Source: Chloroflexota bacterium
GTDB lineage: Bacteria > Chloroflexota > UBA11872
NCBI GenBank assembly: GCA_026706485.1
Contig: JAPOYR010000011.1
Span: 496,001 to 560,000 of the forward strand
Direction of reading: 5' to 3'
DNA: 64,000 bases
Shown here: in pieces, positions 21,404 to 42,990 of the stretch
How the letters are laid out: each line of letters starts with the position of its first letter
Numbering within the stretch: position 1 is the first letter of the stretch
Made by a program: the position numbers and the translations under genes
Notes under the pieces: model-generated
The model's input: only the letters and a program-made list of their open reading frames with translations
What the model was told of the DNA's origin: nothing
The model's database searches: none

Positions 21404-22306
21404 ATGAGTCGCACCCACTCCTGCGAACCCACGATGACGGATGAGGACGTGGTGTGGTTCTGCCGCAACGGCTACTGGATCCTCGAAGCGGCGGTGCCAG
21501 ACGAGATCAACCGGCGAGCGCTGGACTATCTGGCGTCGAACACGCGCGGGGAACCCACTGAAATCCTGCAAGAGGACTGGTTCGTCGACGGCGTGATTCT
21601 CAACCCCGCGGCCGCCGGGGCGGTGCGCTCACTGCTGGGAGACGATTTCGCCCTGCCGACGCTGATGGCCAACCACCGGGGCCGGGGACCGGCCAAGCCC
21701 CAGGATTGGCACCGGGACAGCGGCTCACGCCAGGGGCCGGAACTGAACTACCTGCAGGTCTTCTACTACCCCCAGGACGTGCCGCCGGAGATGGGTCCCA
21801 CGGAGCTGCTGCCGGGCTCACACTTCCTCTACCAGCGGGAAAAGCACATGGCGCACTACGGGGCGATCAAGGGCAGCGTGCTCACCGCCGGGCCGGCCGG
21901 TTCGATCTTCATCACCGCCTACAACATCTGGCACCGCCGGGCGGCCCGCACGGCGCCGGCGGCGGCCGGCGTGCGCCACCTGCTCAAATACAACTACTGG
22001 CGGACTGTCGACCCGCGGCGAGACTGGATCGTGAACCCCGAGTTCGACGTGGCGTCGGCGGACTTCGTTGTCGACGGGCTGCGGTTCGCCGACGGGGTCC
22101 GAGATTGCGTCGACGCCGCCGAGATGTATTTCTGGCTCTGCGGAAAGATCGACGAGTTTCACTACCTGGGCGGTCAGTCGTGGCCCGCGGACATCCTGCT
22201 GTCAAAGCCCACGCCCGGTTCCGACGAACGCGCCCGCTACCGCCGGCGCTTCGGCGTGCCGGGCGACATCACCGATCGACGGGAGAGGCAATCCGGGCGC
22301 CGCTGA
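21404..22306 (+). CDS. Phytanoyl-CoA dioxygenase (PhyH) family protein 1
   Basis: 300 residues. Double-stranded beta-helix Fe(II)/2-oxoglutarate oxygenase: metal site H103-x-D105 in WHRDSG and the distal His in NIWHRR, with a 2OG-binding Arg probably in the following GVRHLLKYNYWR segment. It is strongly similar over its full length to the product of 22872-23780, including the N-terminus (THSCEPTMTDEDV), which supports the start. Members hydroxylate lipids, secondary metabolites or osmolytes. The substrate is unknown. It is likely co-transcribed with the M20 peptidase upstream. Confidence 0.92.
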   Translation: MSRTHSCEPTMTDEDVVWFCRNGYWILEAAVPDEINRRALDYLASNTRGEPTEILQEDWFVDGVILNPAAAGAVRSLLGDDFALPTLMANHRGRGPAKPQDWHRDSGSRQGPELNYLQVFYYPQDVPPEMGPTELLPGSHFLYQREKHMAHYGAIKGSVLTAGPAGSIFITAYNIWHRRAARTAPAAAGVRHLLKYNYWRTVDPRRDWIVNPEFDVASADFVVDGLRFADGVRDCVDAAEMYFWLCGKIDEFHYLGGQSWPADILLSKPTPGSDERARYRRRFGVPGDITDRRERQSGRR

Positions 22307-22354
22307 TGAGTTGAGGGGCGACCGCCGCCAACCTCCAGGTTCGGCCGAACTGGA

Positions 22355-22372
22355 TTCCGGCTTCCGCCGGAA
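22355..22372. repeat. REP-like palindrome, variant TTCCGGC-TTCC-GCCGGAA
   Basis: Perfect 7-bp inverted repeat in the gap before the 122-aa gene, followed by ATGACGG as in the TTCCCGC copies. Both arms carry matched changes relative to the other copies, so the pairing has been kept. Confidence 0.75.
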
Positions 22373-22506
22373 TGACGGAGGGATTTCGAAACGGTTTCCT
22401 CCCGCGGGAACGACGAGAGGTTGCTGAGGGGTGCCAAAAGCATGCGGCACGCGCGAGCTACGATGGGAGGCGCGAGCGCCACGGCGCGATCGGCGGAGGT
22501 CTGCTG

Positions 22507-22875
22507 ATGAAGGACCTGCGGCAGATGGTGCGACAGTGCATCGACGAGCTGCGCGAAGGGCGGCTGACCGAGGAGCGGCTGCGCGAGCTCGAGGAGGCCG
22601 TCGGCGCGGAAAAGCCGCGGCGCTGGGACCTGCTCTACCTCCAGGCAGCCAAGACTTCGGAAGTATCCGACGTGGTCGGCATGCGCATGATCCGCGACGG
22701 CAAGGTGGTCTACCCGTTGCCACCGCCCGAGGACTGGCCCTATAAGACCGTCCTCGATGCCATCAACGACGGCTGGCGGGTGGTGAAGTTCCCCGAGCTG
22801 TCGCTGCTGATGGACGAGGGCCGCACCTATGGACTCTCCTGCGAGTTCATCCTGGAACGGAGGGCCTCCGCATGA
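22507..22875 (+). CDS. Conserved-looking hypothetical protein between two PhyH genes
   Basis: 122 residues. ATG 22507 with GGAGG (22494-22498) 8 nt upstream. The N-terminal half is a charged helix (RQMVRQCIDELREGRLTEER), followed by KPRRWDLLYLQ and a beta-rich end. No family is recognised. Its stop overlaps the start of PhyH 2 as ATGA (22872-22875), so the two are translationally coupled. It may be a small partner or subunit of that oxygenase; this is only context. Confidence 0.7.
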   Translation: MKDLRQMVRQCIDELREGRLTEERLRELEEAVGAEKPRRWDLLYLQAAKTSEVSDVVGMRMIRDGKVVYPLPPPEDWPYKTVLDAINDGWRVVKFPELSLLMDEGRTYGLSCEFILERRASA

Positions 22876-23780
22876 CGCTGACCAAGCGCACCTATTCCTG
22901 CGCGCCCACCATGACCGACGACGACGTGATCTGGTTTTGCCGCAACGGCTACTGGATTCTGGAAGGCGTGGTGCCCGACGAGATCAACCGGCAGGCGATG
23001 GACTACCTGGACGACCATCCAATCTCTGAACCTTCGGAGATCCTGGAAGAGGACTGGTTCGTCGAGAACGTGATCTGCAATCCGGCGGCGGCCGGAGCGG
23101 TGCGCTCGCTGCTCGGCGACAACTTCACGCTGCCGGTGCTGATGTCGAATCACCGCGGCACCGCCCCGCGGCATCCACAAGACTGGCACCGCGACGGCGG
23201 CTCGCGCTACGGCCCGGAGGTGAACTACCTCCAGGTGTTCTACTACCCGCAAGACGTGCCGCCCGAGATGGGCCCGACGGAGCTGCTGCCGGGTTCGCAC
23301 TTTCTCTACCAGCGCGAGAAGCACATGGCGCACTACGACGCGATCAAGGGCAGCGTGCTGACCGCAGCGCCGGCGGGCTCGATTTTCCTCACGTCCTACA
23401 ACATCTGGCACCGGCGCGGCGCGCGCACGGCTCCGACCGGGATTCGCAATCTGCTCAAGTACAACTACTGGCGCACGGAGGACCCGAAACGCGACTGGAT
23501 CCAGGAGCCGGACTTCGACATCGAGTTCGCCGACTTCGTGGTGGACACGTTGCGCCACTCGGAGTTGATGCGGGACTGCGTGGACGCCGCCGAGATGTAC
23601 TTCTGGCTCTGCGGCAAGTCCGACGAGTTCCAATACCTGGGCGGCCAGGGCTGGCCGGGCGACATTCCGGAGAACAAGGCCACGCCTGAGGCGATCGCGC
23701 GCACGCGCTACCGCCACCGCTACGGCGTGCCGGGCGATATGACCGATCGCGGCAAGAAGCGCGCCGCGCGCATCTGGTGA
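22872..23780 (+). CDS. Phytanoyl-CoA dioxygenase (PhyH) family protein 2
   Basis: 302 residues, close paralogue of PhyH 1 with the same length and motifs: H106-x-D108 in WHRDGG and distal His in NIWHRRG. Shared blocks include YYPQDVPPEMGPTELLPGSH. Its start overlaps the upstream small gene, and its stop is one base before PhyH 3 (TGACATG), giving a tight cassette of three genes. The duplicated pair flanking a small gene suggests tandem duplication with functional divergence. Confidence 0.93.
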   Translation: MTLTKRTYSCAPTMTDDDVIWFCRNGYWILEGVVPDEINRQAMDYLDDHPISEPSEILEEDWFVENVICNPAAAGAVRSLLGDNFTLPVLMSNHRGTAPRHPQDWHRDGGSRYGPEVNYLQVFYYPQDVPPEMGPTELLPGSHFLYQREKHMAHYDAIKGSVLTAAPAGSIFLTSYNIWHRRGARTAPTGIRNLLKYNYWRTEDPKRDWIQEPDFDIEFADFVVDTLRHSELMRDCVDAAEMYFWLCGKSDEFQYLGGQGWPGDIPENKATPEAIARTRYRHRYGVPGDMTDRGKKRAARIW

Positions 23781-23781
23781 C

Positions 23782-24633
23782 ATGAGTTGGGACATCGAGC
23801 GGCATGCGGCCGAGCTCGAGCGCGACGGCTACACCATCCTGGAGCGCGTGCTGCCACAGGACGAGATTGACGCCTCCGTCGCGGCGATCGAGGAGACGCT
23901 GGCCTCCGAGGAGACCATTGGGCGCAAATACGGCCTGCAGAGCGCGAACCTGCGGATGGTGTTCAACGCGCAGGCCAAGCACCGGCACTTCCACGGCCTG
24001 CCGCTGCGCTACCCGGCGCCGGTGGAGGTGGCGCGGCAGGTGCTGGGTGAGGACATGTTTGCCCACGACGTCACCATCCGCGTGCCCATGCCGACCGGGG
24101 AGAAGGACCACAAACGCTTCGGCGGCAACCTGCACGCCGACTGGAGCGATTTCACGGTGAAGCCGTTCGTCGGCGGCCGGCACTACGCGCTGGGCATCCA
24201 GGCCGCCTGGGCGCTCACGGAGTTTTCGACGACGACCGGGGGGCCGGTGGTCTGGCCGGGTTCGCACCTCACGAATGAGATTCCGCCCGAGGACTCGGTA
24301 TCGCTTCCGCCCGGATGGAAGATCGCCGAAGCGCCGGCGGGATCAGTGCTGATGTGGGACGCCAGCCTGTGGCACACCGGCGGCACCAATCGCGGCGACG
24401 GCCCGCGCTACTCGCTGATCCTGTTTTTCCAACGCTGGTGGGTGAAGGGCTTCAACGACTCCTATCGCTACATGCCCCCGGAGATGCGCGCGCAAATGTC
24501 GCTGGACGAACGCAAGCTCTGGGGACAAGAGGCCGAGGTCCCGCCGAATACGCATTTCCGAGGCATGAGCCAGGAACAGATCGAGGCCCTGACGCCGGAG
24601 GAACAGGCCGTCCTCAACATCGCGGCGTACTAG
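23782..24633 (+). CDS. Phytanoyl-CoA dioxygenase (PhyH) family protein 3
   Basis: 283 residues of a different PhyH subgroup. Iron site H118-x-D120 (LHADW) and H198 in LWHTGG, with a 2OG-anchoring Arg likely in GPRYSLILFF. N-terminus (ERDGYTILERVLPQDEID) is standard for the family. Directly downstream of PhyH 2. The C-terminal helix-turn (MSQEQIEALTPEEQ) is extra to the core. Confidence 0.92.
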   Translation: MSWDIERHAAELERDGYTILERVLPQDEIDASVAAIEETLASEETIGRKYGLQSANLRMVFNAQAKHRHFHGLPLRYPAPVEVARQVLGEDMFAHDVTIRVPMPTGEKDHKRFGGNLHADWSDFTVKPFVGGRHYALGIQAAWALTEFSTTTGGPVVWPGSHLTNEIPPEDSVSLPPGWKIAEAPAGSVLMWDASLWHTGGTNRGDGPRYSLILFFQRWWVKGFNDSYRYMPPEMRAQMSLDERKLWGQEAEVPPNTHFRGMSQEQIEALTPEEQAVLNIAAY

Positions 24634-25807: not shown

Positions 25808-26701
25808 ATGGCGCTGAAGTACTCGGTGGTGCTGGCGACGCTGGCGAGCAGTCCCGGCGGACAGGTGTGGGAGGACCCGGACACGGTGCTGGGCGCCGTG
25901 GCAGACGCGGGCTACGACGGCGTCGACCTGGACGCCGAGCCCGACCGCATCGACGAGGCGCTGTTCTACGCCGTGGTCGACAAGGCGCGGAACCTGGGGC
26001 TAAGCATTCCGTCGCTGCTCGGAGCCTGGGGCGGCTGGCACGCGGGGGAGGAGCGCGACCTGGCGTCGAGCGACGAGTCGAAGCGGCAGTACGCCGTCGA
26101 CTACGCCAAGCGCTGCCTCGACCTAGGCGCGACGCTGGACGAGCCGCCGGTCTACGAGATTTGCGCGGTGTCGTTTGTGCCCGAGTATCCGGTGACCAGC
26201 AAGCCGCTAGCGGATCTGCGGCGTCAGTTCGAGCGGTCGGCGCACGAGATCGCGTCTCACGCCGAGACCGTGGGCGTGCCGGTGGCCATCGAACCCGTCA
26301 ATCGCTTCGAGGGCTACGCCGGATTCATGAACTCGGTCGTCGAGGCGGTCGCGGTCGTCGAGGCGGTGGGGTCGGACCACCTGGGCATCGTGGCCGACTT
26401 CTTCCACCTCAACATCGAGGACGGCCCGGTCACCGAAGCGCTGCGGACCGCGGGCGAGCACCTCATGCACACCCACCTGGCCGACAGCAATCGCCAGATG
26501 CCAGGCACCGGCCACCTCGACTTCAGCGACATCGTGCGCGTGCTGGACGCCATCGGCTACGACGGCTACCTGTCAATCGATTGCGTGCCGGCCAAGCCCG
26601 ACTGGCGCACCGTGCTCACGTCCACCCGCGAGTTCATGGGCCAGATCGAGGCCGGCGTGGACCTGCAGCGGCGGCTGGCGGCTGTTCAAGTCACTTCGTA
26701 G
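25808..26701 (+). CDS. Sugar phosphate isomerase/epimerase-like TIM barrel
   Basis: 297 residues of the AP_endonuc_2 superfamily. Metal-site segments are visible: AIEPVNRFEG, IVADFFHLNIED, MHTHLADSNRQMPGTGHLDF and YLSIDCV. The pattern is typical of hydroxypyruvate isomerase and tagatose/psicose epimerase relatives. Pairing with the RraA-like aldolase supports a carbohydrate or sugar-acid catabolic step in the cytoplasm; the sugar is unknown. Confidence 0.9.
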   Translation: MALKYSVVLATLASSPGGQVWEDPDTVLGAVADAGYDGVDLDAEPDRIDEALFYAVVDKARNLGLSIPSLLGAWGGWHAGEERDLASSDESKRQYAVDYAKRCLDLGATLDEPPVYEICAVSFVPEYPVTSKPLADLRRQFERSAHEIASHAETVGVPVAIEPVNRFEGYAGFMNSVVEAVAVVEAVGSDHLGIVADFFHLNIEDGPVTEALRTAGEHLMHTHLADSNRQMPGTGHLDFSDIVRVLDAIGYDGYLSIDCVPAKPDWRTVLTSTREFMGQIEAGVDLQRRLAAVQVTS

Positions 26702-26777
26702 GAAAAGCCCGACATGGTTTGGGCGGCATTCCCGTGAACTCCTCGCACCAAATCGGTGCCGCGCCCCATAGAGAGCC

Positions 26778-28931
26778 ATGAGCGTGCGCCTCGGTCGTAC
26801 GCCGCGTGGTTACACCCGTTGCGCGTGCATCCTTTTCATCGGCTTCCTCCTTCTTGCTTGTGGTCCCGATGCCGACCCCATTGCCACAGCAACACGCGAA
26901 CCGGCCGTCACCACATCGCCTGCGGTCGAGGTCACTGAACCGTCCGCAACAACTCAGACGGCAACATCAGCCAGCCACGACGGTGACGCTCCGCAAGTCA
27001 CTTTGTTCGAGGATTTCGATGGCACCAAGAAGCGAGCCATACTGTTGCCTGATGGCACTTATGTTCTCGCCGACGGAACCAAGTGCAAGTCGGGCGAAGA
27101 CTTCAAATATTGCGAACAGCTGATTGATGGGCCCGTGCCGGTATATCAATGCAGTCCGACTCCATTCGGAGCCGAGGGTGCCGAATTCTACAAAACTAGC
27201 CATTTTTCCAATGACTTCCTTCATTGGAGCAGCGACAACGTCTACCTTGTGTTCGGCTACGGTGAGTTCATCTGGACACTGAATCTCGAGAGCCTTGAGC
27301 TCATGGATCGAGTCAATGCCAATCCCGAGGTTAGCTCAGTAGTTCCATCGGGATTCAAATACGGCTTCTATGCTGATATCTCACCAGATGGCAGGCGCAT
27401 TGTATATTCAAGTTGCGAATATGAAACCGAATACAGCGATAGCTGGCTCAGGAGATTTCCTGAGAATATGCATCCTGACAATTTCGGTACACCGCACCAC
27501 ATACGCGGAAAGCGTGACTACGAGATTGCCGTCGTAGAAACCGATGGACATTCATCTGAACGCCTTACAGAGCGTCGGGGTCTGGACCACTTCCCAGCCT
27601 GGTCGCCAGACGGCACGCGCATAGCTTTTCTATCGAACGAAGATCAGAGGGAACCCCTGGATCTTCATAGTCGACCCGCGTACCGTCAATTGCTATACAC
27701 AATGGCTCCCGACGGTTCGGATGTACGCAAGGTTGTACTCACGCCTGTCGCGCTCTCGCCTCCGGTTTGGTCGTCGGACAGTCGTCGACTGGCGTTTGTC
27801 GCGCTCCAAGGATCAGAGAGGCCCTATAGGTACATTCTTCACACAGTTCAAGCCGATGGCTCTGACCTCAGCAGGATAGGCGCCATAGAACCGTTCGATG
27901 CCGATCACGAATATTTCCCGCTGCCGTCCTGGTCACCGGACGCTAGTCGGCTCGCCTATTTCGCAGCAGGGCCGACGGGCCTCGGCAGCATTTACGCCGT
28001 TCGTCCAGACGGCTCTGACAAACAACCGGTAGTCGAGGGCGTTGACGTGCGCCAAATCGCCTGGTCACCGGACGGGTCGGAGATCCTCTTCGTCACCGAT
28101 TGGCTGTACTTCGTCAACCCTGATGGAAGCAATCTGCGCCGCTTGGAGGTGCCAGCCGACCTCGAGCGGCGCATGGCCGAGGCCGGCGGAACGGCCCTTG
28201 CCGCATGGTCGCCGGATGGCTCCCAGATCGCCATTCACTATCCGGGACGACTGCTCGTGACCATGAACCGTGACGGGACCCACAACCGCATCATCTACGG
28301 TGGCGACTTCCGGCCGCGGGCGGCGCTTCCGGTCAGGGAGCCAATTGATACCGCCGTCTGCTCTGCCGGCGTCGCTGTCCCCGATCCTGAAACCAACCCT
28401 GGCCTCGTTCAGGATTGCGAGACCCTCCTTGCGGCCGTTGAAGTGCTCGCCGGCGACTCCAGATTCGGCTGGAGTCCTGACGTCCCTTTCACCCGGTGGA
28501 AGGGCGTGGTCGTCAGTGGCTCGCCACCGCGGATTAGGGAATTAGTCATTGCGTCCAGCGGGCTGTCGGGCACGATACCGCCGGAACTGGGCGATTTGCA
28601 GGCGCTGGAGCTTCTTGATCTCTCCCAAAACCCTCTCGTCGGCGAGATCCCGCCTGAGTTGGGCACCCTCGCTGAATTGGTGTTTCTGCGCCTCAAGCAC
28701 ACGTATCTCAGCGGACCCATCCCGCCCGAGCTAGGGGGTTTGTCCAAACTACAGGTGCTGCGGCTCACCAATGGCAACTTCAGCGGAATCATCCCACCGG
28801 AGCTTGCGGCCCTCACCGATCTCACGACAGTGGACATCTCGGACAACCGGCTGGTCGGCTGCGTCTCGAGCGAGTTTTCCGACATCTGGGTGACCGGCAG
28901 CGACCTCGATCGCTGCGAAAATAAGGGCTAG
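26778..28931 (+). CDS. Lipoprotein with PD40/TolB-like propeller and C-terminal leucine-rich repeats
   Basis: 717 residues. Lipobox LLAC (C28), a short Thr-rich spacer, then a propeller with five PD40 motifs (for example AWSPDGTRIAFLS, VWSSDSRRLAFVA, SWSPDASRLAYFA, AWSPDGSEILFV). The last 190 residues carry about four plant-like LRRs (GTIPPELGDLQALELLDLSQ and similar) ended by a Cys-capped segment. The combination of both binding folds on one membrane anchor points to a surface recognition or adhesion protein. The stretch 26990-27700 is less GC-rich than its neighbours, which may indicate transfer. Confidence 0.88.
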   Translation: MSVRLGRTPRGYTRCACILFIGFLLLACGPDADPIATATREPAVTTSPAVEVTEPSATTQTATSASHDGDAPQVTLFEDFDGTKKRAILLPDGTYVLADGTKCKSGEDFKYCEQLIDGPVPVYQCSPTPFGAEGAEFYKTSHFSNDFLHWSSDNVYLVFGYGEFIWTLNLESLELMDRVNANPEVSSVVPSGFKYGFYADISPDGRRIVYSSCEYETEYSDSWLRRFPENMHPDNFGTPHHIRGKRDYEIAVVETDGHSSERLTERRGLDHFPAWSPDGTRIAFLSNEDQREPLDLHSRPAYRQLLYTMAPDGSDVRKVVLTPVALSPPVWSSDSRRLAFVALQGSERPYRYILHTVQADGSDLSRIGAIEPFDADHEYFPLPSWSPDASRLAYFAAGPTGLGSIYAVRPDGSDKQPVVEGVDVRQIAWSPDGSEILFVTDWLYFVNPDGSNLRRLEVPADLERRMAEAGGTALAAWSPDGSQIAIHYPGRLLVTMNRDGTHNRIIYGGDFRPRAALPVREPIDTAVCSAGVAVPDPETNPGLVQDCETLLAAVEVLAGDSRFGWSPDVPFTRWKGVVVSGSPPRIRELVIASSGLSGTIPPELGDLQALELLDLSQNPLVGEIPPELGTLAELVFLRLKHTYLSGPIPPELGGLSKLQVLRLTNGNFSGIIPPELAALTDLTTVDISDNRLVGCVSSEFSDIWVTGSDLDRCENKG

Positions 28932-28963
28932 CCGGCGGGGCTTAGGTCCCCTCCCCAAGGGGG

Positions 28964-29094
28964 CCTTTGCAAGAGCCAGCCGGGCTTGGGGATGACCGGG
29001 CGCATTCTATCCGCCCCCGTGTTTAATGAAGGGTGGATTCCCGCCTTCGCGGGAATGACGAAGGGTTACGCAAAAGTCTCCCGAGGGAGAGGGT
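28964..29094. repeat. About 130-bp dispersed repeat, copy A
   Basis: From CCTTTGCAAGAGCCAGCCGG to CCGAGGGAGAGGG this matches 33338-33468 over its whole length, with scattered changes. It carries the TTCCCGC palindrome at 29038-29055. The end of the repeat (GGGAGAGGG, 29085-29093) lies 7 nt before the GTG of the next gene and seems to serve as its ribosome site. Confidence 0.8.
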
Positions 29095-29100
29095 GAATCC

Positions 29101-42492: not shown

Positions 42493-42990
42493 TTGACTGA
42501 AATCGACGAAGTCTTGGCAAGCAACGCCAGCTATGCGGCAAACTTCCGCGCGTGGGATTTGACCGCATCGCCCGTGCGCAGCCTTGCGGTGGTGGCCTGC
42601 GCGGACGCGCGCATTGACGTGCACAGAATCCTGGGACTCAAGGAGGGCGACGCTCACGTCATCCGAAACGCGGGAGGCGTGATCACCGACGATGTGATTC
42701 GGTCGCTAATGATTTCCCAGCGACTGCTCGGCACCCGCGAGGTCATGCTCATCCATCACACCGACTGCGGCATGCTGAAATTCCGCGACGACGACTTCAA
42801 GGATGAGATTGAAGCCGAAACGGGGATTCGTCCGGCATTCGCGCTCGAAGCCTTCGCGGATCTCGACCAAAACGTGCGGCAGTCCATCGCCCGAATCCAC
42901 GCCAGCCCGTTTATTCCACACAAAGACCAGATTCGGGGGTTCATCTACGATTGCGCCTCTGGAAAGCTTGCGGAGGTCCTGGATTCATAG
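42493..42990 (+). CDS. Beta-class carbonic anhydrase
   Basis: 165 residues. Zinc ligands C36 (CADAR with Asp38), H89 and C92 (HHTDCG). Converts CO2 and bicarbonate in the cytoplasm. TTG start, decided by GAGGAG 6 nt upstream. About 350 bp downstream, on the same strand, is a SulP-type transporter, as in inorganic-carbon uptake pairs. Confidence 0.93.
   Translation: MTEIDEVLASNASYAANFRAWDLTASPVRSLAVVACADARIDVHRILGLKEGDAHVIRNAGGVITDDVIRSLMISQRLLGTREVMLIHHTDCGMLKFRDDDFKDEIEAETGIRPAFALEAFADLDQNVRQSIARIHASPFIPHKDQIRGFIYDCASGKLAEVLDS

Follow-up and report, generated by a model that had tools for sequence, protein, structure and literature searches.

In Streptococcus pyogenes, the membrane-bound leucine-rich repeat (LRR) lipoprotein Slr is able to bind collagen, according to the part of its report drawn on here (PMC3105044). 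The plant-type (PS) class of LRR has been described, in the excerpt of the source available, as exclusive to extracellular plant proteins (PMC2244805). Eukaryote-like repeat proteins of sponge symbionts have been reported, in the passages at hand, as laterally transferred. Here, we analyzed a gene that touches on each of these systems. It lies at positions 26778 to 28931 (+) of a 64,000-nucleotide stretch, which we call the window, from a Chloroflexota bacterium (GCA_026706485.1, contig JAPOYR010000011.1, positions 496,001 to 560,000), and its predicted product joins a lipoprotein signal, a PD40 beta-propeller, and PS LRRs. We consider it somewhat probable that this product is a surface lipoprotein in which the propeller serves as a spacer for a ligand-binding LRR face and that it belongs, as an accessory member, to a set of recognition or adhesion proteins.

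That report describes Slr as an LRR lipoprotein that is bound to the membrane, exposed at the surface, and has its LRRs in a horseshoe arc, much as is predicted for the window protein; the portion available mentions no PD40 propeller, unlike the window protein, and the two were compared by description only. The plant LRR receptors GSO1, FLS2, SERK1, and BAK1, taken from the Protein Data Bank (PDB), share the 24-residue plant-type units, and with GSO1 and SERK1 the sequence alignment extends into the cap that precedes the LRRs. In those receptors a transmembrane helix and a kinase follow the LRRs, whereas the window open reading frame (ORF) stops 36 residues past the start of its last unit. The plant receptor N-cap LRRNT_2 (PF08263) does not match the window cap and matches 1 of the 24 rows of the family alignment, at E 0.006. 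TolB of the Tol-Pal system has a PD40 propeller in common with the window protein, but at 74.4 bits against a cutoff of 343.15 for TIGR02800, the window protein is not TolB by that model. TolB is also not fused to LRRs, and Omp85 was not found in any of the 21 genomes searched here, with the control registering in 7 of 14. The lack of Omp85 suggests a bacterium without an outer membrane, in which a lipoprotein would face outward. Sponge symbionts share the expanded sets of LRR, FN3, and cadherin repeat proteins, although the parts of those reports consulted describe no PD40-LRR lipoprotein. No Pfam or NCBIfam model matched the whole architecture, as opposed to its propeller and LRR parts, and it was not described in the titles or abstract openings among the matches listed for the LRR literature. 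Plant-type LRRs in bacteria are themselves of an already known kind, reportedly described by Matsushima and colleagues. The propeller-LRR combination and its lineage limits, on the other hand, appear new within the searches made.

The 717-amino-acid ORF begins with ATG and is divided as follows.

26778..26861 (+), lipoprotein signal peptide with lipobox LLLA/C at residue 28 (from the translation, the aligned Cys column, and LspA in the genome)
26862..27209 (+), linker, residues 29 to 144, T/P/S-rich at its start and of low conservation (from the translation and identity to relatives)
27210..28337 (+), PD40 beta-propeller, residues ~145 to 520, probably of seven blades (from Pfam PD40 and from TolB chains, which matched by sequence and, with a poor model, by fold)
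28341..28532 (+), conserved LRR N-terminal cap with C528, C547, and W574-x-G576 (invariant in 24 of 24 rows)
28533..28931 (+), five 24-residue plant-type LRR units and a C-terminal cap with C713 (from Pfam LRR_1 and from plant LRR receptor chains matched by sequence and fold)

The single hydrophobic stretch of the protein is N-terminal, and in the translation an arginine-containing stretch is followed by the lipobox, which together give the sequence pattern of a bacterial lipoprotein. The lipobox Cys is conserved in 18 of 24 alignment rows, and the N terminus is missing in three of the other six. An LspA gene was detected in the window genome (G000), and the product of the window gene is probably a lipoprotein, with acylation and processing by LspA predicted. 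The linker over residues 70 to 144 shows 0 to 26% identity to relatives, with few columns aligned. Pfam PD40 matched the protein at E 3.3e-18 (65.6 bits; cutoff, 20.9) and LRR_1 at E 1.8e-13 (48.2 bits; cutoff, 20.6). LRR_4 and LRR_8 also scored above their cutoffs, so that both families named for checking by an initial annotation of this DNA (PD40 and LRR_8) were found; the propeller also exceeded the DPPIV_N cutoff (27.6; cutoff, 22). SPDG-type motifs lie near residues 150, 201, 275, 331, 385, 429, and 477, and the blade count was judged from them by eye. In 2,000 shuffles of the protein, W[ST][PS]D motifs had a mean of 0.02 and a maximum of 1, compared with seven in the real sequence (one of which, at residue 565, falls in the cap and outside the propeller), and LRR units had a mean of 0.004 and a maximum of 1, compared with five. 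LxGxIPxxLGxL is the consensus of the PS class, and all five units, which start at residues 586, 610, 634, 658, and 682 (LRR region, 586 to 705), are 24-residue units of this kind. Thus, the class said to be confined to plants is present in a genome that is prokaryotic and has a bacterial 16S gene. Of the 24 rows, 22 retain C713, and the window cap alone matched no Pfam family.

Among solved structures, the relatives of the LRR part found by sequence were foremost plant receptor ectodomains, and those of the propeller were designed propellers followed by TolB chains. Because solved structures are a narrow sample, the plant lead does not show which way any transfer went. We also built structure models of the whole mature protein and of the LRR part alone, both without the use of relatives. 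The whole-protein model had a mean predicted local distance difference test score (pLDDT) of 43.8, with the LRR part at about 20 to 30. The LRR part alone reached a mean of 54.3, and the other four models were at 31 or below. The best fold matches of this weak LRR model were the short plant co-receptor ectodomains BAK1, SERK1, and SERK2, and matches to SERK, BAK1, and SOBIR1 ectodomains mostly had template modeling scores of 0.5 to 0.65 by target length. Given low-confidence models made without relatives, these fold matches simply agree with the sequence searches. Taken together, the ORF, the Cys28 lipobox, the Pfam matches, and the shuffle control confirm the initial annotation of a lipoprotein fusing a PD40 propeller to LRRs, and the five PS units, LRR_1, and the leading plant ectodomain matches bear out its description of the repeats as plant-type.

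The window gene is an accessory gene in this lineage. Its site was compared with those of five sister species.

25808..26701 (+), left flank, xylose isomerase-like TIM barrel (Pfam PF01261), 93 to 96% identical in five sister species
26681..29083 (no strand), segment missing from five of five sister species; BLAST homology of the flanks stops at 26679 to 26680 and resumes at 29084 to 29099
28964..29083 (+), interspersed repeat of ~120 bp adjoining the gene, with at least 41 further matches in the genome
29101..30141 (+), right flank, zinc-binding-dehydrogenase-type oxidoreductase (Pfam PF16884 and PF00107), 94 to 97% identical in five sisters

The missing segment takes in the final codons of the left gene, which ends differently in the sisters. 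In all five sisters the flanking genes are 26 to 288 bp apart, and no remnant of the window gene or protein was found between them above chance (best E values: DNA, 1.5; protein, 2.0). With up to 18 candidates scored per sister genome, the closest piece was 56% identical over residues 424 to 694 (in G002), compared with 93 to 97% for the neighboring genes. We therefore recognized no orthologue in the sisters, and an insertion in this lineage explains the site most simply. Such an empty site in close relatives is what a horizontally acquired gene would leave, although by itself it does not tell whether the gene was transferred in, moved from elsewhere in the genome, or was lost in the relatives. 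Unlike the window gene, the paralogue L049 has a syntenic counterpart in G004, L036, with a DNA identity of 88 to 90%. A recent copy of one of the genome's own paralogues was rejected, as DNA matches to the examined loci spanned 56 to 167 bp and protein identity was at most 38%. The core of the adjoining repeat, GGATTCCCGCCTTCGCGGGAATGAC, has three exact copies in the window, at 801, 29035, and 33409, and the same intergenic spot in G002 and G004 holds other repeat-like sequence, as judged by eye. A repeated left junction was rejected because the 98 bases at 26681 to 26778 occur once in the genome. Farther upstream, at window positions 21404 to 24633, three phytanoyl-CoA dioxygenase (PhyH) genes stand in a row with an unnamed ORF between the first two, which are 73 to 83% identical in DNA over long stretches.

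To define the family, we took a last PD40 blade, a two-Cys cap, and LRRs in a single ORF, an arrangement that the window gene has, and searched with a 24-row profile of the last blade plus the cap. A whole-protein search of the window genome gave 94 matches, mostly to pieces of long LRR-only proteins; by profile and spanning matches, this genome holds six PD40-LRR fusions, including the window gene. Of the 400 phylum genomes searched, 17, the window genome included (a hand count of listed rows), had a match that covers both propeller and cap: 14 of the 19 in the family of the window genome, f1, and 3 in f4, another family of the same class. Any profile match at E 1e-15 was present in 27 of the 400. 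At most eight candidates per genome were scored in this search, and absence from G001, G006, and other LRR-rich genomes is therefore not firm. LRR_1 was found in 28 of 61 relatives scanned (f1, 18 of 19; f2, 2 of 5; f4, 6 of 6; f5, 2 of 2) and in none of the 9 from f3 or the 20 outside the class. Homologues widespread in free-living Chloroflexota with uniform codon use would have spoken against the initial annotation; what we found were 17 of 400 genomes from two families of one class.

Across the 24 aligned relatives, the cap hardly changes, LRR number varies widely, and the linker shows little conservation. LRR strand positions 2, 3, 5, 7, and 8 were the most variable of the unconstrained positions (3.36 to 3.80 versus 1.75 to 3.24 bits), in 392 units, not independent of one another, that were pooled from 50 proteins and in which the search pattern itself fixes 12 of 24 positions. 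This variability may weakly indicate a binding face, and it is also what would be expected of LRRs generally. Other arrangements also occur. At L054:1751-7531 (+), in the same genome, a 1,926-amino-acid chain combines many LRRs with PD40 repeats and a PQQ-type propeller. At L044:3572-11689 (+), in G012, four tandem PD40 genes have zero or one loose-pattern LRR match each, and three of the four retain the cap motif. Nine viral-contig loci matched the propeller, none with more than one LRR unit by the strict pattern in six frames, and carriage by phage was rejected on this basis. A scan of genome contigs yielded a single distant PD40 hit lacking any LRR unit.

Of 29 capped PD40-LRR genes (the window gene counted among the 29), 7 are directly followed within 150 bp by an ORF with an LRR cap motif, and four of the seven overlap that ORF by 4 bp. 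Of three such partners scanned, two, covered over their full length, have FN3 and cadherin domains and one has LRRs only. The conserved front domain of a partner, queried as 387 amino acids, matched no Pfam or NCBIfam model and nothing convincing in the PDB (best E, 0.16). It is encoded at L052:7100-8260 (+) and L050:4757-6367 (-), and its DNA is 72 to 81% identical to L032, L033, L037, L039, L041, L043, L044, and L048 and 68 to 71% identical to L042.

The initial annotation had also taken low guanine-plus-cytosine (GC) content in the first third of the gene as a hint of transfer. Over 360-base stretches of the window, GC averaged 0.673 (standard deviation [SD], 0.038), and seven of the eight lowest stretches start at 27001 to 27361 (down to 0.472), with the eighth at 42781. 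Codon use is likewise not uniform: GC at third codon positions (GC3) is 0.475 to 0.61 over codons 1 to 420 and 0.72 to 0.77 over codons 421 to 660. Against automatically picked genes (118 windows of 120 codons; mean, 0.842; minimum, 0.567), this low GC3 gave z values of -3.5 to -5.5, which are too strong; automatic picking favored high GC3. Genes picked by length alone, which include some surely wrong frames, gave 119 windows with a mean of 0.803 and an SD of 0.110, 8 of which were at or below 0.61. The same dip is seen in L050 and L051 of this genome (G000) and in L030 and L048 of sister genomes and is absent in L036, L038, and L049; the composition of the gene is thus shared with relatives in its own genome. 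Since the nearest relatives carry the dip at other loci, low GC alone does not mark an insertion, and recent foreign DNA on composition as the sole evidence was rejected. The hint therefore holds in part: the dip is real and the segment is foreign to its site, whereas low GC is no sign of recent foreign origin. In the full tree, L030 and L050 are the partners of the window gene (99/94), and lower-GC members from f4 come next, less firmly. Trees of segments 145 to 380, 380 to 520, 380 to 600, and 520 to 717 also keep these three together. L048 joins them in the front segment, and weakly in the back one, and not in the full tree; the short segment 260 to 380 gave one large clade among the rows listed. 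These trees do not support a chimeric gene made by joining a low-GC front to an LRR cassette, though the differing identities over residues 260 to 380 would still allow for one. The dip may stem from an early transfer out of f4, from looser constraint on the front half, or from the two halves having recombined differently.

How the gene came to be at this site can be read in other ways. It may have been ancestral there and lost in the sisters, which we regard as rather unlikely: its subfamily does occur at other sites in the genus (L050 and L030) and the intergenic repeats in G002 and G004 could mediate deletion, yet all five sisters have closely spaced flanks with no remnant scoring above chance, and several losses are less parsimonious than one insertion unless the sisters form one clade. 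Absence of the gene from this site in every sister would also fit an assembly or binning artifact that placed a foreign piece between neighbors. This is very improbable, however, as the gene is interior to a 709,587-base contig and has same-subfamily relatives in its own genome and genus. Alternatively, the subfamily could derive from a lower-GC relative in f4, with the low-GC half being foreign DNA that has not yet adapted. The next relatives in the tree, L029, L047, and L042, belong to f4, and the examined stretches of their genomes have a GC of 0.55 to 0.59. We nonetheless hold this origin to be about as doubtful as loss, because any transfer must predate the split of the window gene from L030 and L050, which share the dip, because front and back segments keep the three together, and because the placement with f4 members is modestly supported (92/51, 81/59, and 93/91).

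What the protein binds is likewise open to more than one account. A host-contact factor of a symbiont, whose eukaryote-like LRRs mimic or bind surface or matrix proteins of a host such as a sponge, is possible though not probable. It would fit sponge-symbiont reports (PMC8163846 and PMC6306507), including LRR genes in sponge SAR202 and Caldilineae (PMC6306507), and the binding of collagen I by Slr (PMC3105044), each as given in the parts of those sources consulted. Against it, three published 16S probes designed for sponge Chloroflexi clades did not match the 16S locus, their best sites there having 4, 6, and 6 mismatches. LRRs can also mediate contact between bacteria. We give similar, tentative weight to recognition of kin or neighbors and biofilm building together with FN3/cadherin partners rather than a host. 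The large within-genome set, the species-specific gene content, and the partner proteins adjoining some paralogues argue for such a role, but no partner adjoins the window gene, and 9 of the 10 neighboring ORFs scanned have enzyme or small-molecule-binding Pfam families (the tenth has none), toxin and immunity genes not having been searched for as such.

In the reading that we favor, the lipoprotein would be anchored on the outside of the cell membrane, and the PD40 propeller would hold the C-terminal LRR arc off that membrane. The concave LRR face may then bind an extracellular protein or glycan, and the window gene would be one accessory member of a diversified surface recognition or adhesion family of which different species carry different members. 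Several observations weigh against this. The propeller itself could be the binding part, and exposed positions vary in most LRR proteins, which weakens the variability signal. By the test used, 22 of the 29 capped genes, that in the window included, have no adjoining partner. Finally, residues 260 to 380 are 47 to 50% identical to several family members and 31 to 37% identical to the tree partners L030 and L050, and a mosaic history of the protein is therefore possible.

Bacteria that live with others repeatedly carry LRR surface proteins. More broadly, and with considerable reserve, the family may be a lineage-limited receptor set with fast turnover in bacteria without an outer membrane, which would display plant-like LRRs on PD40 propellers and gain and lose entire genes at repeat-rich intergenic sites. 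In such a set, varying LRR number and face might form a species-specific surface recognition code for hosts or neighbors, and some loci might add FN3/cadherin partners bearing an undescribed conserved domain. The clean empty site in five sisters makes this gene a tractable case of surface-gene gain or loss, and the PD40-LRR family offers a ready set of natural variants for ligand finding.
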